From positions 1-52,689 of the IMG/VR virus record IMGVR_UViG_3300025322_000532: a DNA stretch of 52,689 nt, one strand, 5' to 3'. The notes under the pieces were generated by a model that worked only from the letters and a program-made list of their open reading frames with translations, did no database searches and was not told where the DNA came from. Both the position numbers and the translations under genes were made by a program. The DNA is from a virus. The stretch's first letter is position 1, and every line of letters begins with the position of its first letter. Shown here in pieces: positions 1,830 through 27,467 of this stretch.

Positions 1830-3070
1830 TTGCGAATTCTCCGGCCATCGCTCTGAACCTGCCGCCAGGCGTAGACCCCGCCTCGGGAAGGACCGAACGG
1901 ATTCAAGAGATCGGCCTCACTGATTTGATAGCTCACGTCAGATCCGGTGCGGGACAGATCCTCCCGCCAATACTCCACGAACTTCTCGACATTGTTGCAT
2001 GAACACAACTCGCGGTCAAGGAGCGCGGCGGATAGATAGACGATGGCTTTCTCCCAATAGGGGTCAAGCTGCACCCGTGGGCAAGACACCCGCGGATCGG
2101 TCGATTGCCAACCCGCATAGTACCAGACTCGGAGCTGCTCGGGGTCTCGCCCGACCGAGAATTCCGCCACATCGAACTGCTCATCATCGGAATCCCATGT
2201 CGCCGGCCGATAGGTCAGCTCGCCTAATCGTTCGTTGCGGACGGCCAGGCATCCAGTCTGGGTCGAGAAGGAGCACTCGACACAGCCCGATCCGTTGCAG
2301 TTCGAGCAGCCCGACGGCTCGTGCTCCCAGAGCAGATTGGCCTGGCTCTGCGGATCGTTCCAGACCCGATAGACATCGATCGTCGTTTCGTAGGACGCAG
2401 CCAGGTCCCCGTTGATTCTCTGGTCGGGTAGCTCGGCATCTAGGCGTTCCTGGAGCGTAGGCTTGACCAACTGCCAGCGATCGAAAGTGATCGTGGCTAC
2501 TCCGCCCGCAATCGTGACCGTGATCGGCCGGATCTCGTAGGCGAAGCTCCCGGCCTGGCCGGGCAAGAACGCCCGGATTTCGCAGGGGGAGGTTACAGCG
2601 GTCGCCACCGTCGCGACGGCCCGTTCGTCGTAGCCATCCCCATCGACATCCGAGACCGTGACCACAACCAGATCATCAATCAATACCTGCGCCCGCTGCC
2701 CGCCCGAGATCACATAACCCCAATCGGTTTCGATCGACTTGGCGAGGCCCCGGACGTTCACCGAAGCACTTGAGAACAGCTCGGGCCTTGCCGGACGGAC
2801 AGTCTGCCTGCGCTCATCAGCCACCCAATCCGGAAGCAGGAAGTACCCGAGCTCGGACGCGATCTTCATCTCCGCATCCCGGATCGCTTGGGCTAGGTCC
2901 TCGCGGGAGGTGTAGTTTGGATTCTGATAAGCAAATTGAGTCCACGCATCGTTGCAGTTGCTGGCAGGGACGACGGAGGAGAAGAGCTGATTGGCATGTA
3001 ATGGATTCACCCCGAGGATCTGGAAAAAGCGATCCAAACTAAGCCACGTCGGAGTCGTTGCCCTAGCCAT
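1826..3070 (-). CDS. head-tail connector protein with Cys-rich insert
   Basis: The 414-aa product begins with a helical segment (REDLAQAIRDAEMKIASELG) resembling gp6-type head-tail adaptors, and its C-terminal part (DPYWEKAIVYLSAALLDREL) looks similar. The middle is beta-rich and contains a cysteine cluster (CSNCNGSGCVEC) that could bind a metal. It is much longer than the roughly 100-150 aa of classical adaptors, so the middle is probably an inserted domain. It overlaps both neighbours by a few bases, consistent with one operon. Connector role comes from position and terminal helices; the function of the insert is unknown. Confidence 0.6.
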   Translation of the reverse strand: MARATTPTWLSLDRFFQILGVNPLHANQLFSSVVPASNCNDAWTQFAYQNPNYTSREDLAQAIRDAEMKIASELGYFLLPDWVADERRQTVRPARPELFSSASVNVRGLAKSIETDWGYVISGGQRAQVLIDDLVVVTVSDVDGDGYDERAVATVATAVTSPCEIRAFLPGQAGSFAYEIRPITVTIAGGVATITFDRWQLVKPTLQERLDAELPDQRINGDLAASYETTIDVYRVWNDPQSQANLLWEHEPSGCSNCNGSGCVECSFSTQTGCLAVRNERLGELTYRPATWDSDDEQFDVAEFSVGRDPEQLRVWYYAGWQSTDPRVSCPRVQLDPYWEKAIVYLSAALLDRELCSCNNVEKFVEYWREDLSRTGSDVSYQISEADLLNPFGPSRGGVYAWRQVQSDGRRIRK

Positions 3071-3360
3071 CAGAAGGTGCCCCGAGCCTCTTCGCGCATC
3101 GCTTGCTGAGCGGCTGGATGATCCTGTGTCAGTGGCAAAGAACCTGTGCGCCTCGGAAGTTCCTGATCTACAGAATAACCAGGATGGGGTGGTTGCTTCT
3201 TCTTGCGGACATGGGCGATCTCCACTTTCGCCTCGACGTAGAACTCGCCGGGATCAGGCCGGATCTCACCCCGATAAATGATCTCGCCGTGCCAAAGCAC
3301 TCTCAGGCGATCTGCAATGCTCAGGCGGATGTGGGTCTGGAACCATGCTGGTGTGCCCAT
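3070..3360 (-). CDS. hypothetical protein near head-tail connectors
   Basis: About 96 aa. I chose the ATG preceded by GGGAG at 7-nt spacing rather than the TTG two codons upstream. The N-terminal two thirds (RLRVLWHGEIIYRGEIRPDPGEFYVEAKVEI) alternates beta strands and the tail is charged and proline-rich. It ends at the start of the connector gene. I do not recognise the family; a small head-completion protein is possible. Confidence 0.55.
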   Translation of the reverse strand: MGTPAWFQTHIRLSIADRLRVLWHGEIIYRGEIRPDPGEFYVEAKVEIAHVRKKKQPPHPGYSVDQELPRRTGSLPLTQDHPAAQQAMREEARGTF

Positions 3361-3390
3361 TATCAATCTCCCAATATTGGAATGGTAGCC

Positions 3391-3723
3391 CTAGCCATGA
3401 TTATGGCGTTCCACGATGATCGCCAAACTACTCAACCCTAAAACCGCGGAGACGGCCATCGTAGCAGAGGCGGAGAGTCCGAATGCGATGAACCATACCA
3501 GACCGATCCAAGGAGAGAGGCACCAGGTACAAGCCAGTAGTTTTCCCACTTCTCCACGAACGTTATCTGTATCGGGTCGACCGTCGTCGAAATGATCGAT
3601 TCCTGCGGCGGATCGGATTCGTTGGAAGACTGCGAAAGGTCCTCGCTCATACGAAATCAGCGCCGAGACTCTCCATACCGCCAGGCCTCCGACAAGTAGC
3701 TCAGGCAGGTTCGGGACTGGCAC
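3391..3723 (-). CDS. DUF1360 family membrane protein
   Basis: The 110-aa protein has the hallmark of DUF1360 proteins: an N-terminal helix (LLVGGLAVWRVSALISYERGP), then LLACTWCLSPWIGLVWF, in which CxxC-type residues abut a membrane segment, and a second C-terminal hydrophobic helix. The family is known from Bacillus and from phages of Gram-positive hosts, and its function is not established. It overlaps the end of the large glycosyltransferase gene by 23 bases, so it is probably cotranscribed with the sugar cassette. Confidence 0.75.
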   Translation of the reverse strand: MPVPNLPELLVGGLAVWRVSALISYERGPFAVFQRIRSAAGIDHFDDGRPDTDNVRGEVGKLLACTWCLSPWIGLVWFIAFGLSASATMAVSAVLGLSSLAIIVERHNHG

Positions 3724-6661
3724 GTTCCGTCAGCCTGTCCTCAAGGATCCGGATGGCTCCCACCCGCTTCTTCCCGGCCCGCTCTTCCTGCAGCCATTGT
3801 AGTAAGGTCGAGTCCTCCGCGTCAACCGCCGCGCTTGAAATCTGAGCGATGGTCATGTCGTCGGTCTTGCGCGGATCGGGGCCGGGCATCTCCGGGAAAT
3901 CGGGCATCGCCGGCGGGCCGGTGACTTCAACCGGGACCCGGATGCGCTGGCGCTCGGGAGCCTTCTGGACAGTCAGGAAGTCGGGCTTGCCTTTCCGGCT
4001 CCGGCCCAAGAGAACCTCGGCATCGCTGGAGATCACGTACTTCGGCTCGTTGCGGTGGAAGACGTAGACGGTGTTCGTGATCGGGCCCCGGATCGTGACT
4101 TTCCCGTCTCCTGGCCCTTGGTAAGCCAGTAGCGTCATCGGGCCTTCGAGCGCGGCCTGCATCCTGGCACCGAGCGCCGGATTGGAACTCGGATTGATGC
4201 TGGCCTTCGCTTTCCCTGGACAACCTCCGCAGGGCATGGTCTTTCTCCTCTCGTAGTAATCGGCCCAGTTGCGCCGGATCATCTTGAGTATAGCGTCTTT
4301 CTTGCCGAAGCTGTCCTCCCGGATGGTCCCGGTCCGGAACCGGTAGATGAATCCGGGGATGGGCACCCGGTAGCTGCAGACCCCCGCGGCCTGGAGGGCA
4401 ATCAGGTAATCCCAGTCCTCCCACCCCGGCATCGTCTCGTTGTAGCCTTCGACTTCCTCATGTGCCCACTTTGGAATCAGACAGGTCATGGCGTGCCGCA
4501 TCTTGATCAACACGTCCCCGCAGCGGAACTCGTCGGACTCGACCATCTGCATCGGCTCGCGTGGATCCGGTTCTGCTTTCAGCCAGTCGGTGTAGATCAG
4601 GCCGCCGCCGGTCCCGATGTGATAGGCGTACATCTCTTCCAATGCATTCGAGAGCAGCATGTCATCCGCATCGAGCAGAAAGATCGCCTCCGAAACCGCG
4701 TGGCGGGCCGCGAGATTGCGGGCCTGGGACGGCCGCATGAGCTGTCCAGGATCAATCACTTTCGCCCACGGACAGCCGGCGACCGGGGAATCGAATTGGT
4801 CTGCGCTCGGCCAAGCCTTGCCCGTCGCGTTGACAACAATCGCTTCCCAGTCCTGAAAGGTCTGGGCCAAGACCGAATCGAGCGCGTCGATGACGTACTT
4901 CTCGTGCCCCGGCCCGACGGGGATCAGGACCGAGACTCTGGGACTCACTCGATCCGGAACCGGCCAGAAGCGCACCCCCGGAGGTGGGTCTCCCTGGGCC
5001 GACCACGGCACCATGTCCTCGTTCGGATGCCCGATGCTGGTCCGCATGAGCGCCGCCCCGTCCTTGCCGTTGTCGGCTCCCAACCGCCAGGGAAACTCCA
5101 GCGTCCAATCCCCGTCGCCGGGTTCTCCCTGCGACTTGGAATCCGACCGCCAGCGGTAGACCAAGGTCGCGGCTTCGGTGACTTTCTGGATCTTGAACCC
5201 GAAGCTGGAGGCGAGGATCCACAACGGCGCATCCTCGGCTCGCCAATGGCGAGTTCTGTAGCCTCCAGTCCGCTCCATGACCTCCCGCCTCATCAGCGCG
5301 GAGTAGGGGAGCTGGTTGAGGTGCGCCATCTGGGCCCGCCAGTTGTACTGCGCGAACGGCCAGGAGTTCCGTTGACGGTTTGTTCCGTCCTCGCTCACCG
5401 TGTCCAGATGCCCATAGGCCACATGGATCGATGGGTCTTGATCCAGCACGCCCGCGAGGGTTCGTAGCGCGTGTTCGGCCAGCATATCATCGGCATCCAG
5501 AAACAGAATGTACCGGCCCTTGGCGTGGGTGAACCCGAAGTTGCGAGCGCCAGGGAGCTTCAGATTTTCGGGCGTTCGGAGGTAACGGAAGCGGGGATCC
5601 TGCTGAGACCGAACAATGGAGACCGGATCGTCCGCGCTCGCATCGTCAATGACGAGGCATTCCCAGTCCTGGAAATCCTGCGCCGCCACAGAAGCCAGGC
5701 AGTCGCCAAGATACCGAGCGAGATTGTGAGTCGTGACCACCACCGAGACCTTGACTGCTTGGGCATCCCACCAAAGCCGCGCCCGTTTGAAGAGATCCGC
5801 ATATTGCTCAATCCTCCGTTCCCAGCCCCAGCGGGTCACGACATCGTGGCGGGCATTGGCTCCTAAGACATCCCGGTTCTCCAACGCCCACTGCAGGCCC
5901 TCGGCTAGGGCCTCGTAGTCTCCAGGCTCGGCCAGAAATCCGGTCTCAGTATGCTTGACGATTTCGGCCTGCCCGCCCCAGTTCCAGCCCACGACCGGGA
6001 CTCCGCAGCTCATCGCTTCAAGCGTCCCGATTCCGAAGGTCTCACGCGCGGTCGCGAGATAGACCCCGGAATTTCGCACGATTTCCCGCATGTCCCCGAC
6101 CGGCATGACCCCGAGGATCTGGATATTGGACGGCGCGGGACCCGGCGCAATCGTGGACTGAAACGCCACATTCGGGACTCGCTTCGCGACCTCGATCAGG
6201 TCATAGGGATCGCTGACCGGATCGGCGCGGGCTTTGTTCCAGAGCACCGTCGGCCGCCAGTTGCCGGAAGGAGTCCATTCGTCCGAATCGACTCCGTGGT
6301 ACACGACCTCGGGATAGACCAGCATGCCTCGGCGCAGGGCCCGGGCGACCCATTCGCTCGGCGCGGTATGGAATTGGGCGCGGGCCATCGCCCGGACGAC
6401 TTCCCGATTGGCCTCATGTGCCCAATTCGGCCAGTCATAGCGACTCCAATAGCAGCCATGATTCGCGTTCACGATCGGGCGGTCCGGCGGCATATCCACG
6501 ACCATCGTCCCATGCGTGCAGACGACATCGGCCTCCCGCCAGCCCGTGACCGGTTCGATCCCGAACTGCGGGAGGTACTTCCACATGGCCTCAGAGACCC
6601 GGCGGATGCCGCCGTCGCCGTGATCCGGCTTGGCCCACGTAGGGATTATTGCGACCTTCAC
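3701..6661 (-). CDS. three-domain glycosyltransferase (GT4-GT2-GT2) with virion-like C-terminus
   Basis: The 986-aa protein joins three catalytic modules. Residues about 1-295 are a GT-B, GT4-like domain with the donor-site signature ETFGIGTLEAMSCGVPVVGW. Residues about 304-510 are a GT-A, GT2 domain (VSVVVTTHN, VIDDAS, LFLDADDML). Residues about 575-800 are a second GT2 domain (VSVLIPVGPGHE, FLLDADDML). From residue 809 the sequence changes character: MPCGGCPGKAKASINPSS, then a beta-rich stretch (RGPITNTVYVFHRNEPKYV) resembling small phage structural proteins. It may build a short glycan on a virion protein or host surface polymer. The 6658-6661 overlap couples it to the epimerase. Confidence 0.85.
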   Translation of the reverse strand: MKVAIIPTWAKPDHGDGGIRRVSEAMWKYLPQFGIEPVTGWREADVVCTHGTMVVDMPPDRPIVNANHGCYWSRYDWPNWAHEANREVVRAMARAQFHTAPSEWVARALRRGMLVYPEVVYHGVDSDEWTPSGNWRPTVLWNKARADPVSDPYDLIEVAKRVPNVAFQSTIAPGPAPSNIQILGVMPVGDMREIVRNSGVYLATARETFGIGTLEAMSCGVPVVGWNWGGQAEIVKHTETGFLAEPGDYEALAEGLQWALENRDVLGANARHDVVTRWGWERRIEQYADLFKRARLWWDAQAVKVSVVVTTHNLARYLGDCLASVAAQDFQDWECLVIDDASADDPVSIVRSQQDPRFRYLRTPENLKLPGARNFGFTHAKGRYILFLDADDMLAEHALRTLAGVLDQDPSIHVAYGHLDTVSEDGTNRQRNSWPFAQYNWRAQMAHLNQLPYSALMRREVMERTGGYRTRHWRAEDAPLWILASSFGFKIQKVTEAATLVYRWRSDSKSQGEPGDGDWTLEFPWRLGADNGKDGAALMRTSIGHPNEDMVPWSAQGDPPPGVRFWPVPDRVSPRVSVLIPVGPGHEKYVIDALDSVLAQTFQDWEAIVVNATGKAWPSADQFDSPVAGCPWAKVIDPGQLMRPSQARNLAARHAVSEAIFLLDADDMLLSNALEEMYAYHIGTGGGLIYTDWLKAEPDPREPMQMVESDEFRCGDVLIKMRHAMTCLIPKWAHEEVEGYNETMPGWEDWDYLIALQAAGVCSYRVPIPGFIYRFRTGTIREDSFGKKDAILKMIRRNWADYYERRKTMPCGGCPGKAKASINPSSNPALGARMQAALEGPMTLLAYQGPGDGKVTIRGPITNTVYVFHRNEPKYVISSDAEVLLGRSRKGKPDFLTVQKAPERQRIRVPVEVTGPPAMPDFPEMPGPDPRKTDDMTIAQISSAAVDAEDSTLLQWLQEERAGKKRVGAIRILEDRLTERASPEPA

Positions 6662-14094: not shown

Positions 14095-14628
14095 CTACGT
14101 CAAGCGGAGGGATCGCCGAATCGCGAGCCGGATCAGGTTCTCGTGGTTCTTTTGTCGGCGTCTTGCGATCTCAATATCGAAGTCTCGAGCCTGGGTCCCC
14201 GGATGCTGGACCGCCCGCGCAAACGCCACCGGACCGGAGGCCCCGCCTGCCCTGGAACTGATTATCCGAGGTCGAGTCTTGGCCTTGAAACCAGTCTGGA
14301 ACCGGAGCCTACGCGCTCGCCGGGGCCGGATCAAATGCGGGCGAGTTCCGCGGGTGACGTAGGTATACGCCTCCTGGTTTGTGGAAACCAATACCTCCAA
14401 GTCGGCACCCGTCAACCGCGGTCCCTCCTTGCGGAATGACGGCTTGTGCTCCCAGGTTTTTACCGTCTTCTGAAAGTCATCCCGAATGATATTGCCGGTG
14501 TGATCTAGCGCGTCCTTGAGTTCACGCTGAAGCCGGGCCAGATCGATCAGCTTGGCGACCTTCGGCAGGATCGGAATGAACTTGATGTCAGCCAACGGGA
14601 ACCCACTCGTCTTCCAAGAAGAGCTCAA
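14095..14628 (-). CDS. HK97 gp10-like head-tail protein
   Basis: The 177-aa basic protein has the family's usual features: a helical N-terminal half (LARLQRELKDALDHTGNIIRDDFQKTV) and the late motif AVQHPGTQARDFDIEIARRR, matching the HPGxxARPF-type signature of HK97 gp10-like proteins involved in head-tail joining. It begins within the last 41 bases of the MuF gene. In most siphoviruses this gene lies after the capsid gene; here it is before the protease. Confidence 0.72.
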   Translation of the reverse strand: MSSSWKTSGFPLADIKFIPILPKVAKLIDLARLQRELKDALDHTGNIIRDDFQKTVKTWEHKPSFRKEGPRLTGADLEVLVSTNQEAYTYVTRGTRPHLIRPRRARRLRFQTGFKAKTRPRIISSRAGGASGPVAFARAVQHPGTQARDFDIEIARRRQKNHENLIRLAIRRSLRLT

Positions 14629-16261
14629 TCTGACAGCGGCAGTTCGAATTGTGGGAAATCAAGCCTTCAACGATGAAGGAATGATCTTCTTCTACCCGGA
14701 GGTCATAGAGCGGAGTGCCTGCCAGTAGTGCTCCAGTGAGCAATACTTGTTGGGGCGTTCCTTCCGAGGTCGTTTCCAGAATTCTTTTCCGCAGATGACG
14801 CAATGATGAGCCATTCGCGTATTTGGCCGGGGATGAAGTCTCGCGTGTTCGGAGCTTGTAAGGAGCTTTAAGTTCTCTAAGCGATCGTCGGTCGGATCGT
14901 GATCGACGTGATGAATAACCATCCCTTTCGGAATAGATCCATGTGCCACCATCCATACCCATTGATAACGGTAGATCGTTCTCCTCTTCGCGCCATCCCA
15001 AAAAAGAGCATATATCCGTCCGTCCAATTTCTTGTTTCGGAAATGTTCCTTCCTTAGATCGTCGAAAGCCCTCCTGCGCTGGATTCCAGCTTGTCGGATA
15101 CCACTCAGGATGCGTTTGCGTTGATTGACGTTCCGCCATTGGAGTTTGGCTTTGCGGGACATGCCGCAGCTCAGACATTCGTCCGCGCGAAAGTCTTTCT
15201 TCTTTCCACAGTGGCAAATCCGAGAACAAGATGTACAGATGTCCGACTGGCGATCCTTGCGATAGCTTGTCCCGCATCGCGTACAGATTTGAGGCATAGT
15301 CTAGAGTATACACCGACAACCGTTTATTGGCTATGTTATCCGTCCTCTGCCAACCGAATTGAGTAAGCCACCGATGATCTGACGTGCAACCGATCCATTC
15401 ACCGCTGGGAGCTAAGAGCCAGGCCTGTCGGTGTATAGGTCTTGAAAAGCTGATGATCGTCTCCAAGACAGTACGCCAACGACCTCGATGAGTAAGAACC
15501 TGATCTCCAATTACCACGTCACGAATTGGTATCTGGCCTCTATTTGTCAGAACGCGGGAATTAGAAGTTGTGATGCAATGGCATTGATCCGAGCCGTCCG
15601 CTGGCAAGCCGCCAGTGAGAGCCAGCATCTCATTCCACGAGCCGTACTCGCGGGCCTTCGGCGGGCAGGTCGCGCAGTGCTGGGCACCGGGATCGAGTAA
15701 TCGCCGCACCGGAACCGTATCCGCTTGCAAGCTCTCACGCATCGATTCCTGAACCCCGAGCCACACCGCGGTCCAGTAGGCCCCGGTATACAACCCGACC
15801 CGGCTCGCCCAGGCCAGGCCGCGGTCATCCGCGAGCTGGCCGAGAGTCAAGCCACCGACTTCGGGATCGCTGAGGTCCGCTCCGATGTAGGGGAGCAAAC
15901 TACTGATCAGGAACCCGGAGTTGAGGTTCAGCGCGGCTGCCAGCGCGACCGCTTGGGCAATCCCGGACCCTGTCCCGAACCCCAGCTTGAACGCGTTCGG
16001 GAATTCTTTGCGGGCCAGCTGATCGAGCTGGACTTCCAGGTCAACCAGCGCGGTGGCGACCGCCGCATCATCGGACAACGAGAGCGCGGAGTAGGCCGCG
16101 ATCCACGCCAAGAGAACGGCAGTCAGCTTCCGACGGTATTCCTCCGTCTCCTCTTCGGCAAGGCCGGGTTCGCCGATCAGTTGCTTCTGCCAAACGTCTG
16201 AGGCTTGTAGTAGTTCTAACGAGGCCTGAATGACCCGCGAAGAATCAGCAATGATCATCAC
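14588..16261 (-). CDS. MuF-like head morphogenesis protein interrupted by an intein
   Basis: The 557-aa precursor contains a 247-aa extein and a 310-aa intein. The extein is a Mu F-like minor head protein: helical N-terminus, CATCPPKAREYGSWNEM, and after splicing QCH-SNCRC, the conserved C-terminal Cys/His motif of the family. The intein runs from Cys229 to Asn538 and interrupts precisely that motif, a typical site for inteins because the residues are essential. The +1 residue is Ser539. MuF proteins act in head assembly beside the portal, in agreement with its position. Confidence 0.88.
   Translation of the reverse strand: MMIIADSSRVIQASLELLQASDVWQKQLIGEPGLAEEETEEYRRKLTAVLLAWIAAYSALSLSDDAAVATALVDLEVQLDQLARKEFPNAFKLGFGTGSGIAQAVALAAALNLNSGFLISSLLPYIGADLSDPEVGGLTLGQLADDRGLAWASRVGLYTGAYWTAVWLGVQESMRESLQADTVPVRRLLDPGAQHCATCPPKAREYGSWNEMLALTGGLPADGSDQCHCITTSNSRVLTNRGQIPIRDVVIGDQVLTHRGRWRTVLETIISFSRPIHRQAWLLAPSGEWIGCTSDHRWLTQFGWQRTDNIANKRLSVYTLDYASNLYAMRDKLSQGSPVGHLYILFSDLPLWKEERLSRGRMSELRHVPQSQTPMAERQSTQTHPEWYPTSWNPAQEGFRRSKEGTFPKQEIGRTDICSFLGWREEENDLPLSMGMDGGTWIYSERDGYSSRRSRSDRRSLRELKAPYKLRTRETSSPAKYANGSSLRHLRKRILETTSEGTPQQVLLTGALLAGTPLYDLRVEEDHSFIVEGLISHNSNCRCQIELFLEDEWVPVG
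14648..15577 (-). mobile_element. intein in MuF
   Basis: Splicing blocks are visible: block A CITTSNSRVLTNRGQIP with Cys1, block B GCTSDHRWLT (TxxH type), GWQRTDNIANKRLSV closing the N-terminal half, and blocks F/G in TPLYDLRVEEDHSFIVEG ending LISHN, then Ser+1. About 95 N-terminal and 25 C-terminal residues are canonical. The 200 residues between are not a recognisable in-frame endonuclease; they are the alternative-frame reading of a nested HNH gene. Splicing is inferred from these motifs. Confidence 0.9.
14692..15297 (-). CDS. HNH homing endonuclease nested out of frame in the intein
   Basis: The 201-aa protein starts with zinc ribbons (CTRCGTSY, CTSC, CHCGKK, CLSCG), then an HNH domain (HGSIPKGMVIHHVDHDPTDD, RLENLKLLTSSEHARLH), and ends with a zinc finger (CVICGKEFW ... 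YCSLEHYW). It reads in the +1 frame relative to the intein frame and lies entirely within it. A TAG two codons upstream closes its own frame, so it must start internally. I see no Shine-Dalgarno site. A TATACT box 7 bases before the ATG could permit a leaderless transcript, though the -35 is poor. Base composition is AT-richer than the extein, as for a mobile gene. Confidence 0.88.
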   Translation of the reverse strand: MPQICTRCGTSYRKDRQSDICTSCSRICHCGKKKDFRADECLSCGMSRKAKLQWRNVNQRKRILSGIRQAGIQRRRAFDDLRKEHFRNKKLDGRIYALFWDGAKRRTIYRYQWVWMVAHGSIPKGMVIHHVDHDPTDDRLENLKLLTSSEHARLHPRPNTRMAHHCVICGKEFWKRPRKERPNKYCSLEHYWQALRSMTSG

Positions 16262-16623: not shown

Positions 16624-17976
16624 CTAGGCCGGATCGATCGAGGAAACCGGATCGCCCGCCGCCGTAGCAACCGCCGCGGTCCAGTCCACGGTCGCATCAT
16701 CCTCTTCATAGACCGTCAGCGTCCCGGCCGCAATGGCCCGCCGGTTGCGGAGAATCCGTAGCGCTTCCTGAACCGTTCGGCCGCCATCAGCGCCACTGGC
16801 GAGGGATCGAAGCAGAATCCGATCCGCGATCTCTTGGCCCGCGTCGGTCGCCAAGGCATCGGCATCTACGGCGCCCGTAGCAATCACTAGAGCTGTGATG
16901 ATGCCAGCGACCATTGCCCCGACTGAGGAGTCCATGCGGCCTCCAACGAGGGCAGCCGGAATCCGAGTCTGGATGTCATCGGTGTCAGCCTGAACGGTTG
17001 CCAAAGCGGACGCATCGGCTTTGTCCGAGAGTTCAAGTCCTGTGCTTCCAGCTCCCAGATGACCCGCGATCAACTCGTCCCAGACCGCGTCCGCAATTTC
17101 GGCTCCCGCATCCGCAGCCAGCAAAGCCGCGGTCAAGAAGGCCGCATCGAACTGCGCGGTCCCGAGGGCACCAAGCGCGTTATCCAGATCAATCCCGGCC
17201 TCGCCGCCCACCGCCACGTCCAACGTGCGCCCAGCAACGGTAGGTGCAAGTCGTGTCGTAACCGCGGCATCAAGATTTGGAATCTCAGCTGCGCTTAGCG
17301 TACCGCTAGTATTGTCTAGATCAATCCCGGCTTCTCCTGCTACTGTGACATCCAGTGTGCGGCCTGCTACTGTTGGAGCGAGCCGAGAGGTGATAGCCGC
17401 ATCAAGGTTCGGGATTTCTGCCGCGCTCAAGGTACCTACGGTGTTATCCAAATCGAGTCCAGCCTCGCCCGTAGCCGCAATATCAAGCGTCCGTCCAGCG
17501 ACAGTCGGAGCCAGACGGCTTGTAATAGCCGCATCTAAATTCGGGATCTCCGCAACACCGAGTGTCCCAGCCGTATTGTCGAGATCCAGCCCAGCTTCAC
17601 CGGCGGCAGTCACGTCCAGGGTCCGATCTGCGGTCGTCGGACGCAAAGCCGACCGGGCCTCGATGCTGAATTCGGCCACTACGTAACCAACCACAGAACT
17701 CCCGCCCACCGTACCGGTCGTGATCACCAATTGATAGTTCGAGGCCGTGGCAAACCCATTCCCACCAGTCGCTACAACGCGGACATTATGCAGGCCTGTT
17801 ACGCCGTCGAAATCCACAGTCAGCGTAATGCCTGCCGTAATTTGAACCAAGCTGTTGTCCACATAGGCGGAGATCACCGGCGTACCCGCCAGCGTCGTCG
17901 GCACCCCAGAGGTATTCACAGTGGTGAACTTGGTATCGAACGTCTTGCCCAGAGAGAAATCGCCGATGTAGCTCAT
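16624..17976 (-). CDS. repeat-containing virion fibre or decoration protein
   Basis: The 450-aa protein has an N-terminal beta-sandwich-like domain (residues 1-110, FDTKFTTVNTSGVPTTLAG), then four copies of a roughly 44-residue unit (RTLDVTAAGEAGLDLDNT ... EIPNLDAAITSRLA), then an Ala-rich C-terminal part ending DATVDWTAAVATAAGDP. This build occurs in phage structural proteins forming trimeric fibres or head decorations. It lies between the beta-helix protein and MuF, far from the tail tip genes, so a head or neck fibre is a reasonable inference. Confidence 0.7.
   Translation of the reverse strand: MSYIGDFSLGKTFDTKFTTVNTSGVPTTLAGTPVISAYVDNSLVQITAGITLTVDFDGVTGLHNVRVVATGGNGFATASNYQLVITTGTVGGSSVVGYVVAEFSIEARSALRPTTADRTLDVTAAGEAGLDLDNTAGTLGVAEIPNLDAAITSRLAPTVAGRTLDIAATGEAGLDLDNTVGTLSAAEIPNLDAAITSRLAPTVAGRTLDVTVAGEAGIDLDNTSGTLSAAEIPNLDAAVTTRLAPTVAGRTLDVAVGGEAGIDLDNALGALGTAQFDAAFLTAALLAADAGAEIADAVWDELIAGHLGAGSTGLELSDKADASALATVQADTDDIQTRIPAALVGGRMDSSVGAMVAGIITALVIATGAVDADALATDAGQEIADRILLRSLASGADGGRTVQEALRILRNRRAIAAGTLTVYEEDDATVDWTAAVATAAGDPVSSIDPA
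17140..17646 (-). repeat. four 132-bp tandem units with diverged codons
   Basis: Units of 44 codons begin at about 17646, 17514, 17382 and 17250; the last is incomplete. The peptides are nearly identical over EIPNLDAA and GEAGLDLDNT, yet the codons for these peptides differ between copies at many third positions. Confidence 0.85.
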
Positions 17977-19827: not shown

Positions 19828-20963
19828 CAGTTTGGATATTTGATCCACCACTCGCCAGCAGGCGAAATGTCGGCCTCTACCGTATCCGAAGCGTTGTTCC
19901 GCCTCTGATAGTAGCCCGTTGGGACGTGCTCCAGGACAAATGGAATGCAATCCAAGCCAACCTCAGAGCATCCGGAGACGATTTGCCCATAGCGATTTCG
20001 ATAGCCGTTGAAATCGACGTAGCCGTCGCCGTCGGGATCATCGAAACCGCCAATGCTTCCAGCCAAGATGTGCATGGTCATCCTGGAGTTGTTCAGCGCG
20101 CACTGGTAGTCCGGACAATAGAACTGGAGTTTGAACGGGTCCAGAGGATCGACGGGACCCCAAACGTCTTCGCCCCGTATTGCCAGGTCAGTGAATCCTC
20201 CGACTGTGGCTCCGTACCAGGTGGCAATTTTCGGCTTCGGAGGACCGGAATTGTGCAACCTACGATTGTTGCCACAGGTGGAGGGGTCGCTGGGTAACGG
20301 CACATGCACGTCATCCACGAACAGACACCCGAAGTCGTGCCAGCCTCCACCGCGGAGAATGCCACAGTTATCGGGATCGCTCTCGCGACAAATCAGCAGT
20401 TCCATCCAGTAGCTGTGATAGCGCACGGTTGCGCCCAAGCTACCCATGATGGCATGGTACTGCACTCGATAGGCTTTCACGCAAATCGCGGCATATTGGG
20501 CGAAGCAGGACTCATCGACATTCACAAGCCATCCATAACCCTCATGCTTATTGGCATTCTCATTGGGTGTCTGCCACGGATAGGAGACTCCTCCGCCCGC
20601 CCACCCATAGAACTGAACGCCAAAGATGTCATCGACGGAATGGGGGTCTTCCTTGTGTTCGTGGCCGAACGCCTCAGTAAGCGGATGCCATTCTCGATCA
20701 TTATGCTCACTCGGCTCTAGTGTGTCGGTTGGGAACGGCGTATCAGTCACGGTAGGTTCCGGCGTATCTGTAGGAGGAATAGGAGTGTCGGTAGCAACCG
20801 GCTCCGTAGCAGTCGATGCCAGCTCCGGCACATTGAAGACGTACTGCCCCGCCTCCAGATCATATTCCCCCGGAGGGAGCGCAGGCCCTTGAGCGAGCGT
20901 CCGACCAGCGAATAGAGCGGCCAACAAAACTATAACAGCTACAGCGATTTGTCTCTTGTTCAT
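19827..20963 (-). CDS. secreted protein with Thr-Pro-rich linker
   Basis: The 378-aa protein starts with a signal peptide (MNKRQIAVAVIVLLAALFAG, then TLAQ), has YDLEAGQYVFNVPE, a Thr/Pro-rich linker (DTPIPPTDTPEPTVTDTP), then a Cys- and Trp-rich globular domain of about 270 residues with a possible calcium-type loop (DDPDGDGYVDFNG). Exported proteins are uncommon in the head module, so this looks like a moron acquired from a host. The linker style is typical of Chloroflexota. It overlaps the portal stop (ATGA). It may alter the host surface or be a host-derived glycan binder; the function is unknown. Confidence 0.72.
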   Translation of the reverse strand: MNKRQIAVAVIVLLAALFAGRTLAQGPALPPGEYDLEAGQYVFNVPELASTATEPVATDTPIPPTDTPEPTVTDTPFPTDTLEPSEHNDREWHPLTEAFGHEHKEDPHSVDDIFGVQFYGWAGGGVSYPWQTPNENANKHEGYGWLVNVDESCFAQYAAICVKAYRVQYHAIMGSLGATVRYHSYWMELLICRESDPDNCGILRGGGWHDFGCLFVDDVHVPLPSDPSTCGNNRRLHNSGPPKPKIATWYGATVGGFTDLAIRGEDVWGPVDPLDPFKLQFYCPDYQCALNNSRMTMHILAGSIGGFDDPDGDGYVDFNGYRNRYGQIVSGCSEVGLDCIPFVLEHVPTGYYQRRNNASDTVEADISPAGEWWIKYPN

Positions 20964-23224
20964 TTCCGGATCTCCAATCGCTCAATCAGCTGATCTTCGC
21001 CCCGAATGACATCGTAGTCAATCATCTCGCCGGAAGCTAAGTGTTTGCGGATGAGCGTCGCCCGGCCGTTCGCGTCCCGTTTGAGGATCTCCTGCTTGAC
21101 CACGACCGCGCTGAGGCGGGCTTGCTCGGCTTTGGCCTCGGCTTGGGCGGTCAGTTCGGCCACGGATTTCTGGGCCTTTTGCGTCTTCTCGATCTGGCGG
21201 AGCGCTTTATCGAGACCCGAGACCGCCAGCCCAATCGCCTGCCTCCGTTCGTCGTTCTCCTGTTCGAAGGACAGCATCGCTTGATCCAGCCGCTCGTTGA
21301 TCTGGCGAGTCTGGGTTTCCAAGCCCTCGCTCATATTGGCGGCCGTGACGCTGAGATCTTCCCGCATCGACTGGCCGGCCTGGATCAGAGTCTTTTCGGC
21401 ATCGCCCGCGATCTGGCGCATAGAGCGATCTAACCGGTTGTCGATCAGCTGATCTAATCCTTCGGTCCTGGCTTTTCGAATCTCGGAACCCATGTTCTCA
21501 AGGACGGAGGACCTCATTTGAGTCTCTAGTCGCTTCAGGCCCTCACCGAACATATGCTGGAGGGAGTCAACAGCTTCTTGCAACGTCTGATCGGTCTTGG
21601 CCGCGATCTCTTGAACCGAATCGGCCAAGGCTTCATCAACGGTTCCTTGCAGGCCGGTGGACTGGAGTTCCTGGACGATCCGAATCAGGCCATCCAGCTT
21701 CGCATCCAGGCTTACTTCTTTGGCCGCTTGATCAAGCAGCATCATCACGTCAGGATTGCGCTGTTTGAACTGCGGGTTCTGGCTCAGAATTCGAGTGAAA
21801 TTCGTAAAGGTAGACCGAAGCATCTTGTCCTCAGCGGGGAGTTCCGTTTCTGGTGCAACTATGATAGCACCGACTTCGGAATCGTCGCTCGGTTTCTCAC
21901 CGCCTTCGACCGTCTCCTCGGGCGTGACATCCCCTTCGCCGATCGCTACCAGATATTCGGGCTTCAGATCCCCGTCGTCGGCCGCGATCTGGCGGGCGAT
22001 CACGGGCGAGATCTCCCTGCTCTCAATCATAGTCTTGCGGGTTTCGGCGCGGGTCTTCTTGACGGTCGCCTCTTCCTGCTCGGCCTGGATGTCCTGTTCT
22101 TTGAACCGGAACGTCACCGTGCGGGGCATGACCCCGTGGAAGTTGAAGGCTTGCTCCAGCATCCGCATGAACGCGGCGGGACCCTTGCCGCGAGCTTTCA
22201 AATGCAGGACTTCGGACTGCTGGCCGGTCCCGATGTTGCCGGCCGGGAGCGGCGCGAAGTCCTGATAGTCCCGCCCAAATCCGAGGGCGAGGCTTGAGAT
22301 GTACCACTTGAGCTCCTGGTCGAAATCAAAGCCCTCGGGGAGCGATTTCAGTTCGAGCTTGGCGACCGAGACCTGAGTACCGGGATCCAAGGATCCAACG
22401 ATCAGCGGGCCGAGATAGCGGACTAAGCCCTGGTTATCAGCCTGGGCTTCCATGCGGGCTTGAACGTCTTTGATGTCCTGCGACTTCACGCCGCCCAAAG
22501 CATAGATCGCCTCAGCGAACCGGCCGCCAGCCTTCTCGCCGCGGTAGATCTCCATGTCACGCAGGATCTGGGCCGAGCGCAGGACTCGAGTCACCGCCGA
22601 ATATTGCACGCCGTACATGGACGTGATCGGGGCCGGGAATTCCGCCAGCGCGATGACCGAATGCCAGGGCATCTTGTGGCGAGATCCCTTAATGTCGGTG
22701 TAGATGACCGGGAACTCCAGATCGCCGGTGCGCTGGCAGCGGGCCGAGTCCAGATGGGCGATCCCGAGGATGGGCGCGGCCGGGGAATTGGCTTCTCGGA
22801 CGATTTCGATGAAGGCCCCGTTATCCTGAGTGTAGAGATCGAGCGAGACCTTGACCGAGAACTCTCGCCAGCCCCGGCCGAAGTCGGCTTGGTTGAGCAG
22901 CTCGTGAACGACCTCGACCGTGCGGTCCGGGCCGTCGAGTTCCCATTCGAGCGAGGCATTGGAAGTTGCGCAGGTGAAGACCGCGCCGGCCAAGAACGAT
23001 TCGGTCGGCCAGAACTCGCGGAGTTCCATGTCACGTTTGACGACGTTCTTGCCCCAAGCCTCGAAGGTATCGGCAATCGAGGCCATCCACAGCACGAACG
23101 CATTACCCCCTCCCGGCCCGGCCTCAAGCGAAACCGGAGGCTGCTGAACAGATCGAGTCAGCGTCCGCTGCGGGGGCGGAGGAGCCGGGGCGTTGATCGC
23201 TTTGGTCTGAGTGCCGTTAGCCAT
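20960..23224 (-). CDS. portal protein with long coiled-coil extension
   Basis: The 754-aa protein has a portal core (residues about 40-420: NVVKRDMELREFWPTESFL, IEIVREANSPAAPILGIAHL, ISSLALGFGRDYQDFAPLP) and is in the right place after TerL. The C-terminal roughly 330 residues are charged and heptad-like (QEIAAKTDQTLQEAVDSLQH, ARLSAVVVKQEILKRD), much longer than most portals. The extension could project into the capsid or serve as an internal scaffold. The portal call rests on order and on the core's resemblance. Confidence 0.8.
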   Translation of the reverse strand: MANGTQTKAINAPAPPPPQRTLTRSVQQPPVSLEAGPGGGNAFVLWMASIADTFEAWGKNVVKRDMELREFWPTESFLAGAVFTCATSNASLEWELDGPDRTVEVVHELLNQADFGRGWREFSVKVSLDLYTQDNGAFIEIVREANSPAAPILGIAHLDSARCQRTGDLEFPVIYTDIKGSRHKMPWHSVIALAEFPAPITSMYGVQYSAVTRVLRSAQILRDMEIYRGEKAGGRFAEAIYALGGVKSQDIKDVQARMEAQADNQGLVRYLGPLIVGSLDPGTQVSVAKLELKSLPEGFDFDQELKWYISSLALGFGRDYQDFAPLPAGNIGTGQQSEVLHLKARGKGPAAFMRMLEQAFNFHGVMPRTVTFRFKEQDIQAEQEEATVKKTRAETRKTMIESREISPVIARQIAADDGDLKPEYLVAIGEGDVTPEETVEGGEKPSDDSEVGAIIVAPETELPAEDKMLRSTFTNFTRILSQNPQFKQRNPDVMMLLDQAAKEVSLDAKLDGLIRIVQELQSTGLQGTVDEALADSVQEIAAKTDQTLQEAVDSLQHMFGEGLKRLETQMRSSVLENMGSEIRKARTEGLDQLIDNRLDRSMRQIAGDAEKTLIQAGQSMREDLSVTAANMSEGLETQTRQINERLDQAMLSFEQENDERRQAIGLAVSGLDKALRQIEKTQKAQKSVAELTAQAEAKAEQARLSAVVVKQEILKRDANGRATLIRKHLASGEMIDYDVIRGEDQLIERLEIRK

Positions 23225-24056: not shown

Positions 24057-25571
24057 TTACAAGTTCAGCCGAAGACTCTCAAAGCTAGCCATGCTTAAAC
24101 ATACACAGAGATCCACCTTCATCGAATCCTCGCGCTTGACGATCCGCAATCGCCGGCCGTCCTCATCCAGCTTCTTGTCCGCGTTGTCGATGTGCTCGCG
24201 CAGATCGGAGTTCCCATCATGCCAGATCCGCTTTTCCAAGATCAGGTCGAGCAGCTGCCGATCAGCCTGCAGCCGGCGCCCGGCCTGGCTGAAGTCGAAC
24301 GCCCAGACAATGTTCTCTTCAGACAACCCGCTCATCATGTCGTGGAGCTGGTGAATGTCGTAGGCCAGCATGACGACTTGAAACTCACGGCACAGGCGGC
24401 GGATCTCCTCCCGAGGCTCGTTGAAATCGATCTTCTGACCGGGCGCGGCCTGCCATTTGCGGACGTACCGGACGAACAGTTCGTGCTGCCGGTACTTCGG
24501 GTCCGGATGCCGGGTCACGCCGACCAGCCCAAAGCAGTCGGAGTATCCGGTCTGGCGCCCCACCGCCGCGTCCGCCGCCAACACCATCGGCTCGTTCTTG
24601 GTCAGAGGCGGGATCGAGGCTTTCAGCGCGTCCCACCAGACCATTGACGGCAGGAACCGATCCGTGCCCTCCATCTCGATCTCTTCATCGGCTTCGAGCA
24701 GCAGCGCGGCCTCGGCATCGGTCAGGGTCTGGGCCCGCTTCTGTAAGAATTCGGGCGTCAGGTTATGCAGATTGCCGCGGGTCGGGAGCTTGAGCTTCAG
24801 CCGGTCCCGTTTGTATTCCAGCCGATCGTCGCGGGCAAGCCCCTCCTTGTCCTCAGGGATCGGACCCGTGTAGTGCCACATCCAAGAACCCTTCGGGAGC
24901 GGGGTGGTGGTGAACCAGACCTGCGGCTGGTCGCCTAGCGGTCCTGGAATCCGCACCCGGCCGTCGATGACTTTCAGCGCGGCGTCGGTCTTATAGCGGC
25001 GGATCTCATCGAAGTGCCAGAAGTTGATGTTCGGGCCTTCCCATGCCATGACATCGTTCTCGGTCATGCCGCCCAGGTACCAGACTGCCCCGGTCTCCCA
25101 CACCAGCATGAACGGCTTGGACGGCTGCCAATGCCGAGAGGCCATGCGGCGGTGCGGCTGGATGATGAAATCCCACGGAATCCAACGGCGCATCTCGGCC
25201 CACAAGGATCGCTGGAAGTGCGGCAGGTCGGGAGAAGTCATGATGCCAGAACATCCGCGCTTGGCGCGTTCTAGGTCTCGCATGATTCCCGAAACTGATT
25301 TTCCTCCGCCCTCTCCCCCAAGTGCCCAGAGGTTCTTCTTGTCGTGGTTTTTCACCCACGCCAGCTCCTCTGGGGAGTGAGGCTCGTATCGCTTGCCGGT
25401 TTCGGAGTTGCGGTATTCGGTGAGATCCGGCCAGCCGGGGATCGGGGTGTAGGGCCGGTCGTGGTCCTCGTCAGGAAGCAGGCCGAGCAGGATTTGGGAG
25501 GCCAGCGATCTCCGCAAATCGTGTGACGATTCGGTTGAGGAGCCGGTTCTTGTCTTCTCTCGAAAGACCAT
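24057..25571 (-). CDS. terL: large terminase subunit
   Basis: The 504-aa protein has Walker A at residues about 84-93 (ALGGEGGGKSVSG), Walker B with catalytic Glu near residue 189 (INFWHFDEI), and the start of the RNase H-like nuclease (MVLAADAAVGRQTGYSDC) with a later Asp (MLAYDIHQLHD). It is the ATP-driven packaging motor and headful or cos nuclease. It follows TerS with a 101-base overlap, long enough that the true start may be a little downstream, although no ATG occurs before the ATPase core. Terminase type (pac or cos) cannot be read. Confidence 0.9.
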   Translation of the reverse strand: MVFREKTRTGSSTESSHDLRRSLASQILLGLLPDEDHDRPYTPIPGWPDLTEYRNSETGKRYEPHSPEELAWVKNHDKKNLWALGGEGGGKSVSGIMRDLERAKRGCSGIMTSPDLPHFQRSLWAEMRRWIPWDFIIQPHRRMASRHWQPSKPFMLVWETGAVWYLGGMTENDVMAWEGPNINFWHFDEIRRYKTDAALKVIDGRVRIPGPLGDQPQVWFTTTPLPKGSWMWHYTGPIPEDKEGLARDDRLEYKRDRLKLKLPTRGNLHNLTPEFLQKRAQTLTDAEAALLLEADEEIEMEGTDRFLPSMVWWDALKASIPPLTKNEPMVLAADAAVGRQTGYSDCFGLVGVTRHPDPKYRQHELFVRYVRKWQAAPGQKIDFNEPREEIRRLCREFQVVMLAYDIHQLHDMMSGLSEENIVWAFDFSQAGRRLQADRQLLDLILEKRIWHDGNSDLREHIDNADKKLDEDGRRLRIVKREDSMKVDLCVCLSMASFESLRLNL

Positions 25572-26162: not shown

Positions 26163-27467
26163 CTAGGCTGACACGAGCTTCGGTTTGAGGCCCATCTGAC
26201 TCAGGCGTTCGAGGGTGACGGCGACATAGGCTGGATTGATTTCAATGCCGCGGCCTTTGCGGCCAAGCTGTTCACAGGCGACAAATGTAGTACCGGAACC
26301 CAGGAAATTGTCGTATACGATGTCGCCCTGATCCGTGTGATTCCAGATCGCGTTGGCGGGAAGTTCGACTGGCTTCATGGTCGAATGCTCCGGGCTGGCC
26401 CGCGGTTTATCGACCGGCCAGACCGAGGCATGGAACGCTCCCGCCTTGCGTCGCTTGTGGGTCTTCTTCCAACCGAACAAGATCGGTTCATGCTGATAAT
26501 CGTAGTCAAGACGGCCGAGCGAAAACGTCGGCGCATTCTTAATCCAAATGAGGACATGGCGAACCGGAAGCCCAGCCTCCATCATCATCATCATCATCAT
26601 CAGGCCGAGCGAGCCACCCTGCGGGGCACAAACGAAGTAAGCGCAGTCGTCGGCCATGACAAGTTCACGGGTGATCTGATAGGCCAAAAGTAGCAGATCA
26701 TGGAGATCTTTTTCATTGAGGGTATCGCCTTCAATGTCCTCTAAACGCCGTCCAGCCTTCTGGACGGCGTTTAGCATGCGATTCTTCTGGCCCACCCCAA
26801 CGCCATAAGGCGGATCACTGAAAATGCAGGTGGCTTTCAAGCCTTCCATGAGTTGCCCAACTATGGCCCGATCCGTGCAATCCCCACAGATCAACCGATG
26901 ATCGCCAATCTGCCAAAGCTGGCCGAGTTCGGTGCCCCATTTCTTTTGAAGCTCTGTGGCGCGGTCAATCTCGGGTTCGGGCGGTTCAGGCCCAAGCAGC
27001 TCTGGCCGATACAGCCGGATCAGCTGGTCTACATCATCCCGGTCGTAGCCAGTTCCATCCAAGTTCCCATTCGAGAGCGAGATCAGCGCATCGACCAGCC
27101 GCGGTTCATCCCAGCCCCCGAGTTCGACCATCCGGTTGTCGGCGATGGTGTAGGCTTTGCCGGCCTGGGCGCCGAGCCGGATACCCATCACGACCGGGGC
27201 CAGCCATTCGCCGTCCTTGACCCGCACACCCTCAGGCGGCGGTTTGCCGTCCGCCTTCAACATCTTGAGCTCATCAAGCCGCCCATGTCCCGCAAGCAGA
27301 CGCCCGTTGCTTTCGTTCAGAACCATAGGCGCGACGTAGCCGAAGCGGTCCATCGACTGCATGAGCGCACCTAAGTCGTGAAGCTTGGCGTTGTCAGGAT
27401 CGGGTTTGATCTTCGAGAGCGGCAGGTACTCGATCCGTAGCTCCCGTTGCTTCTTGGCTTTGGGCAA
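26163..27467 (-). CDS. ParB-like domain fused to DNA amino-methyltransferase
   Basis: The 434-aa protein starts with a ParB/Srx domain (LRIEYLPLSKIKPDPDNAKLH, GRLLAGHGRLDELK) and continues as a beta-class N6A/N4C methyltransferase with catalytic IFSDPPYGVG near residue 212 and the SAM motif YDNFLGSGTTFVA near 390. This fusion is common in phages, near the terminase genes, and may protect phage DNA from restriction or mark packaging DNA. No cognate nuclease is present, so it is an orphan. A run of seven Met codons lies between the two motifs. Confidence 0.9.
   Translation of the reverse strand: MPKAKKQRELRIEYLPLSKIKPDPDNAKLHDLGALMQSMDRFGYVAPMVLNESNGRLLAGHGRLDELKMLKADGKPPPEGVRVKDGEWLAPVVMGIRLGAQAGKAYTIADNRMVELGGWDEPRLVDALISLSNGNLDGTGYDRDDVDQLIRLYRPELLGPEPPEPEIDRATELQKKWGTELGQLWQIGDHRLICGDCTDRAIVGQLMEGLKATCIFSDPPYGVGVGQKNRMLNAVQKAGRRLEDIEGDTLNEKDLHDLLLLAYQITRELVMADDCAYFVCAPQGGSLGLMMMMMMMEAGLPVRHVLIWIKNAPTFSLGRLDYDYQHEPILFGWKKTHKRRKAGAFHASVWPVDKPRASPEHSTMKPVELPANAIWNHTDQGDIVYDNFLGSGTTFVACEQLGRKGRGIEINPAYVAVTLERLSQMGLKPKLVSA
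26580..26600. repeat. (CAT)7 trinucleotide repeat encoding seven Met
   Basis: Seven perfect tandem CAT units on the plus strand read as seven ATG codons on the minus strand within the methyltransferase (GSLGL-M7-EAG). Slippage would change length in frame, not disrupt the gene. Confidence 0.95.

Follow-up and report, generated by a model that had tools for sequence, protein, structure and literature searches.

An HNH endonuclease gene nested out of frame within the intein of a MuF-like viral gene, with counterparts in phages and cyanobacteria

Introduction

How can an intein and an endonuclease occupy the same DNA when each is encoded in its own reading frame? The question is raised by a MuF-like (head morphogenesis/minor capsid) gene in IMG/VR virus record IMGVR_UViG_3300025322_000532 (referred to here as the window, the whole stretch of 52,689 bases that was analyzed), where a complete HNH gene lies in the +1 frame inside an intein. 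The analysis presented below indicates that the element is probably a mobile cis-splicing intein whose homing nuclease is a separately translated gene that overlaps it in another frame. The two functions share DNA, not protein.

Nested Organization of the Intein

The MuF-like gene (14588-16261, minus strand, start listed as GTG) is a single open reading frame (ORF) that is open across all 557 codons and would comprise 247 codons without the intein. It encodes an HCATCPPKA...CHSNCRC motif of MuF type, which a contiguous class-1-type intein of 930 bp splits between H and S. The intein (14648-15577, minus strand; 310 codons, MuF-like residues 229-538) is flanked by an N-extein of 228 codons ending in ...GSDQCH (15578-16261, minus strand) and a C-extein consisting of SNCRCQIELFLEDEWVPVG plus the stop codon (14588-14647, minus strand). 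The initial annotation had described a 930-bp insert with splicing blocks at both ends; its coordinates proved exact, and the strand, which it left unmentioned, is minus. The splicing blocks are CITTSNSRVLT (A), TSDH (B) and LYDLRVEEDHSFIVEG (F), with ISHN at the end followed by S, so that the features of a class 1 intein are all present: C1, the TxxH of block B, LYDLRVEEDHSF in block F, a terminal HN and a +1 Ser. Profile matches are each weak (Pfam Intein_splicing, 2.9e-4; Hint_2, 7.1e-4; TIGR01443, intein_Cterm, 4.2e-5). An AlphaFold2 model built on a 10-sequence alignment has a low mean predicted local distance difference test score (pLDDT, 51.6) because of the loop region, where residues 87-276 score about 36 as against 60-87 for most of residues 1-86. 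The modeled splicing halves best match the Mtu RecA splicing domain (3ifj; Z 18.3, 129 aligned residues, root-mean-square deviation 2.0), a prediction that conforms to the HINT fold.

The nested gene (14692-15297, minus strand) encodes an HNH_3 endonuclease (E=4.6e-15) in 201 codons with an ATG and its own stop; it begins at gene offset 964 and is hence in the +1 frame relative to the intein, as the initial annotation had proposed. Alignment indicates that the catalytic HH...N...H residues are intact (H129-H130, N142, H151/H155). A fold search with a model of the HNH protein, itself of low confidence (pLDDT 62), returned no significant match. The gene leaves an intein N-terminal splicing half of residues 1-93 on one side (15298-15577, minus strand) and, past the HNH stop, an intein C-terminus ending in HN on the other (14648-14691, minus strand). 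The earlier observation that its last codons overlap block F in the other frame was also borne out, the HNH stop lying 14.7 codons ahead of the intein's terminal Asn. A profile search of the MuF-intein protein found no in-frame nuclease, and the HNH gene being in the +1 frame, this is not a canonical bifunctional intein; neither is it a split intein, the N- and C-terminal intein parts (IntN and IntC) being encoded in one 557-codon ORF rather than in separate ones.

Homologues and Selection on Two Frames

Two IMG/VR contigs that are identical across the gene (L001 and L002) supply an independent homologue of like architecture, placed at the same codons and with the same lengths, the HNH ATG of L001 standing at the same codon as that of the window. 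They share 85-86% nucleotide identity with the window across the intein N-half and HNH; at the protein level identity is 85% for HNH and 75% for the intein frame, and it is 86% for the N-terminal splicing half and 93% for the C-terminus past the HNH stop in the comparison with L001. Two observations that would have overturned the nested arrangement, an indel that brings HNH into frame with the intein and homologues with an ordinary in-frame endonuclease, were looked for and not found: both frames are open in L001 and L002 with no indel within the intein, and the homologue search found no in-frame nuclease relative of this MuF intein. A tblastn search of isolated phages with the whole MuF-intein protein gave no match.

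Comparison of the window with L001 by codon position reveals that the codon phase of substitutions changes at the HNH borders. Counted at intein-frame positions 1/2/3, the N-extein has 18/9/74, the intein N-half 13/3/26 and the intein C-terminus past the HNH stop 1/0/8, whereas HNH has 53/19/13, equivalent to 19/13/53 by HNH-frame position. Read in their own frame, the 85 substitutions within HNH are 31 nonsynonymous and 54 synonymous (56/25 expected); read in the intein frame, those of the same region are 69/14 (54/26 expected). The intein frame nevertheless has no stops across HNH, as had been noted from the sequence at the outset, against 9.5 expected by synonymous codon permutation and 9.9 by extein codon usage; none of 200,000 permutations reached zero (minimum 1), and the third frame, used as a control, has six stops against 5.0 expected. 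From the substitution counts and the absence of stops it follows that conservation applies to the HNH protein and not to the loop peptide, whose frame is kept open. Both frames are thus under selection, HNH for function and the overlapping intein frame mainly for openness. The balance is reversed in the dual-coded tail, where the last ~25 HNH codons lie over the intein C-terminal strands (QQVLLTGALLAGTPLYDLRV; 14692-14768, minus strand) and constraint favors the intein frame: in the last 75 nucleotides of HNH all four substitutions fall at intein codon position 3, and 26 of 26 intein-frame residues are identical to L001 as the HNH tail diverges. In short, the loop peptide drifts while its frame stays open, and the splicing domain takes priority in the 3' tail.

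As to MuF relatives at the same site with and without the insert, which the initial annotation had proposed as a check, both states exist. In addition to the occupied L001 and L002, a third relative (L003) has an uninterrupted gene reading DDCHSNCRC, an exact empty site without the 930 bp. Extein identities among the window, L001 and L003 are alike (0.84-0.85), so that presence or absence of the intein is independent of relatedness. This distribution would fit homing or loss, and the occurrence of occupied and empty MuF alleles is consistent with HNH homing activity.

Recurrence in Viruses, Isolated Phages and Cyanobacteria

A search for block F by DNA patterns, covering viral contigs as well as the window, recovered 112 distinct inteins, about 73 of which have both ends in one ORF. 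These comprise 8 mini-inteins, 59 with a longer in-frame middle (48 LAGLIDADG_3, 5 LAGLIDADG_2 and 2 HNH_3, overlaps being possible) and 6 independent cases (7 sequences, ~8%) with an out-of-frame nuclease. Three nuclease families are represented among the latter: HNH_3 in MuF and in the large terminase genes (TerL) of L064 and L081, LAGLIDADG_2 in the ResIII helicase genes of L076 and L092, and a DUF559/Vsr-like nuclease in the PolA gene of L008. Across the six cases the nested genes start at intein codons 44-97 (the L064 start is uncertain) and stop 10-25 codons ahead of the terminal Asn, approximately the slot occupied by in-frame nuclease domains. Contigs L083 and L107 also have an out-of-frame LAGLIDADG_2 gene and were left out of the count because each contig stops before the intein N-half. 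By itself the open-frame test is weak for L064, L083, L137 and L142 (P0 0.11-0.31), and for L081 it is of moderate strength (0.03). Other inteins, L018, L100, L108, L165, L206 and L224 among them, contain long alternative-frame ORFs that were dropped for their low-complexity or frame-shadow look, no nuclease motif being recognized in them as judged by appearance.

When the nested nucleases were used as tblastn queries, nested HNH_3 genes were found in the TerL inteins of Tetrasphaera phage TJE1, Acinetobacter phage Highwayman (L139) and Rhodobacteraceae phage LS06-2018-MD07, and a nested LAGLIDADG_2 gene in the helicase intein of Xanthomonas phage FoX3; each is annotated as one coding sequence, the nuclease being unannotated.

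A block F pattern search of bacterial and archaeal genomes returned at least 118 inteins, and at least eight cyanobacterial DnaX inteins with a hidden nuclease, mostly ~430 aa, were among the matches listed. They resemble the MuF intein in their out-of-frame nuclease gene, in the phase switch and in the bias toward an open frame; they differ in host gene, in nuclease family (LAGLIDADG_2, ~330-350 aa if intact) and in frame (+2). Counting eroded copies, the hidden gene is found in 12 of 386 cyanobacterial genomes; a genome of the family that includes Microcystis carries it (L277). Substitutions summed over pairs of full-length copies peak at intein position 2 (the nuclease third position) inside the nuclease region (2039/4943/2857 at positions 1/2/3); for the splicing halves the peak is at position 3 (741/478/1497 and 92/62/475, also summed over pairs). 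In L253, L279 and L280 internal deletions damage the hidden nuclease and the intein frame is still open; these copies appear to be stages of nuclease loss. Ssp DnaX splices in E. coli as a mini-intein (PMC3620165), although that copy may or may not carry the hidden gene. Another mini-intein, Spl DnaX, has 136 aa and has been used for cleavage (PMC3103413). The view in the initial annotation that the arrangement lacked a common precedent is therefore not upheld: it recurs in 6 of ~73 viral inteins, in four isolated phages and in cyanobacterial DnaX, and an out-of-frame HNH gene without an intein has been published (PMC11855218).

Genomic Setting of the MuF-Like Gene

Head genes neighbor the MuF-like gene in the window, with a portal (20960-23224, a weak assignment) and a terminase (24057-25571). 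A further head-region protein (16624-17976, minus strand) contains near-identical repeats of ~44 residues, AGRTLDV...GEAGLDLDN...LSAAEIPNLDAAITSRLAPTV. Adjoining the large terminase is a gene (26163-27467, minus strand) encoding a fusion of a ParB-like domain with a DNA methyltransferase (phrog_498, 3.9e-96; phrog_620, 6e-29).

Mechanism and Alternative Explanations

The model that we favor has three steps. Ribosomes would read through the MuF mRNA in the MuF/intein frame. As the intact motifs, fold and open frame predict, a splicing domain of ~125 residues (1-93 together with roughly the last 35) would excise itself, its loop tolerating ~185 residues of alternative-frame peptide at the usual place of the nuclease domain. 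Translation of the 201-aa HNH protein would start at an ATG of its own within the intein, as selection on its frame suggests. Finally, HNH may cut the insertion site of MuF alleles that lack the intein, and repair would copy the 930-bp element in, a step to which the HNH family and the empty and occupied alleles point. Several considerations weigh against this model. Initiation of HNH translation is its weak point, and the internal start is putative: ahead of the HNH start, whether in the window or in L001, no Shine-Dalgarno-like site was found, the best duplex being -5.6 kcal/mol at an unusual spacing. Only a single independent homologue of the MuF version is available, and the permutation test disregards codon-pair effects, although the control frame nonetheless behaves as expected. 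The name MuF is putative, based on the motif plus the head-gene context; the Pfam search of the protein gave no MuF match, and its sole phrog match is phrog_24776 (function unknown; 4.6e-6). Cleavage, splicing and expression are all predictions.

The lack of a clear Shine-Dalgarno site at the HNH ATG would also suit a programmed +1 frameshift near the HNH start, which would yield a truncated MuF-IntN-HNH fusion and make the nuclease a part-time in-frame domain of the intein. Frameshifting is common in phages. In the window, however, a stop codon of the HNH frame lies two codons ahead of the ATG, and the ATG is at the same codon in L001; furthermore, several unrelated nested cases pair an ATG start with a Shine-Dalgarno-like site, of GGAGG type near normal spacing in L081, L092 and L008 and AGGAGA in L076. 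Frameshifting is accordingly judged improbable. A self-splicing RNA intron bearing the HNH gene merits consideration in that HNH homing genes often occur in group I introns, yet neither strand of 14400-15800 has an Rfam match up to E=1, the insert borders are intein blocks and the reading frame is open throughout, leaving this explanation with a negligible chance. Just as implausible is a decaying HNH relic in a luckily open intein frame, or an assembly indel: no points in its favor were found, and it is opposed by the zero stops, the purifying selection on HNH, the independent homologue and the intact catalytic residues.

A different matter is how the separately translated HNH gene came to lie inside the intein. 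The suggestion that a free-standing nuclease entered a mini-intein, or replaced its endonuclease, stands insofar as an out-of-frame HNH gene lies in an otherwise complete intein, both frames are held open and the insert is absent from a homologue. Relatives of this nuclease type that are free-standing genes adjoin TerL, small terminase (TerS) and portal genes, in line with entry. One such HNH gene, upstream of TerS in Acinetobacter phage BP10 (L262), is 51% identical to the nested HNH of the Highwayman TerL intein, and the BP10 TerL is without an intein. Alternatively, an in-frame HNH domain could have been shifted out of frame by a compensating pair of indels, for which the existence of in-frame HNH_3 (2 of 59) and LAGLIDADG_2 (5 of 59) inteins can be cited. 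That origin is rated the less likely, though with a real share of the probability, given that an ATG and a stop belonging to the nested gene stand at the domain borders, that free-standing relatives exist and that the homologue search found no in-frame relative of this MuF intein.

Relationship to Known Systems

With canonical bifunctional inteins, which carry LAGLIDADG or HNH in frame, the MuF intein shares splicing halves, the loop position of the nuclease and putative homing; it differs in that the nuclease has a separate start, stop and product, and in that the loop peptide is unconstrained. The ShiLan element, an out-of-frame HNH gene in a mycobacteriophage DNA methylase gene, resembles the MuF case in having a ~200-aa zinc-finger/HNH gene out of frame, an open host frame and a patchy distribution (Arsenault, Gosselin and Gogarten, 2025, PMC11855218). 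Intein splicing motifs and fold were not found there, and its authors predict that the element stays in the methylase (PMC11855218), whereas in MuF a complete splicing domain flanks the nuclease gene. For overlapping frames the same paper cites a preprint on actinobacteriophage inteins of 'non-canonical architecture' (Gosselin, Arsenault and Gogarten, 2025, doi 10.1101/2025.01.02.630785), which, judged by its title and that citation, may describe a similar architecture. A search of the literature, outside which that preprint fell, found no description of a working intein that contains a nuclease gene out of frame.

Split inteins likewise have a free-standing nuclease gene between IntN and IntC, unlike the MuF intein, which is one polypeptide and would be expected to splice in cis rather than in trans. 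Dassa et al. in 2009 reportedly described such 'fractured genes', in which a homing gene separates the two parts of a split intein. The same nuclease families are involved at TerL and at a helicase. The TerL ORF of Vibrio phages 1.245.O and 1.238.A has IntN at its end, and after it come an HNH_3 gene and then a 'hint domain' ORF. The helicase of Pectobacterium phage Ymer (L141:1791-4901) is encoded in overlapping ORFs for IntN (1791-2573), a LAGLIDADG_2 nuclease (2408-3259) and IntC (3189-4901). Features of the same names are annotated in phages Koroua, Abuela and Sabo. In Vibrio phages L138 (1-2597) and L143 (1-2597) a second, ordinary in-frame intein of LAGLIDADG type seems, from the translation, to lie upstream of the split one in TerL. 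A MuF-like gene is itself represented by an IntN ORF, an HNH gene (PF01844, 2.7e-11) and an IntC ORF in IMGVR_UViG_3300031485_000048 (L007:1120-3459), an apparent natural split intein at an insertion site other than that of the window.

That the same nuclease families occur in both the nested and the split state at one kind of host gene suggests that one state may turn into the other. A single stop together with a new start in the loop frame, which is unconstrained, would suffice to give IntN, nuclease and IntC, as at TerL and the helicase. It is tentatively proposed, as a generalization that we hold to be somewhat short of probable, that the nested out-of-frame nuclease is a third general intein architecture beside the in-frame and split ones, with independent origins (MuF, TerL, PolA, ResIII helicase and DnaX), three nuclease families and an intermediate position toward naturally split inteins.

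Conclusion

The architecture is recurrent, mostly unannotated and under-recognized, and looks like a way for selfish DNA to travel. Annotation usually seeks the nuclease in the intein's own frame, and homing genes are thus easily missed, as in four phage genomes and cyanobacterial DnaX. If the 'non-canonical' inteins of the preprint are the same, the contribution made here is one of breadth (five host genes, in phages and cyanobacteria), of quantitative evidence for selection and of nested/split pairs. Splicing and homing are separated in these elements at the level of protein, and the loci are clean examples from nature of long gene overlaps on one strand in which the constraints are opposite. 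The nested form is a possible step towards split inteins, and provides a testable route from the contiguous to the split state.
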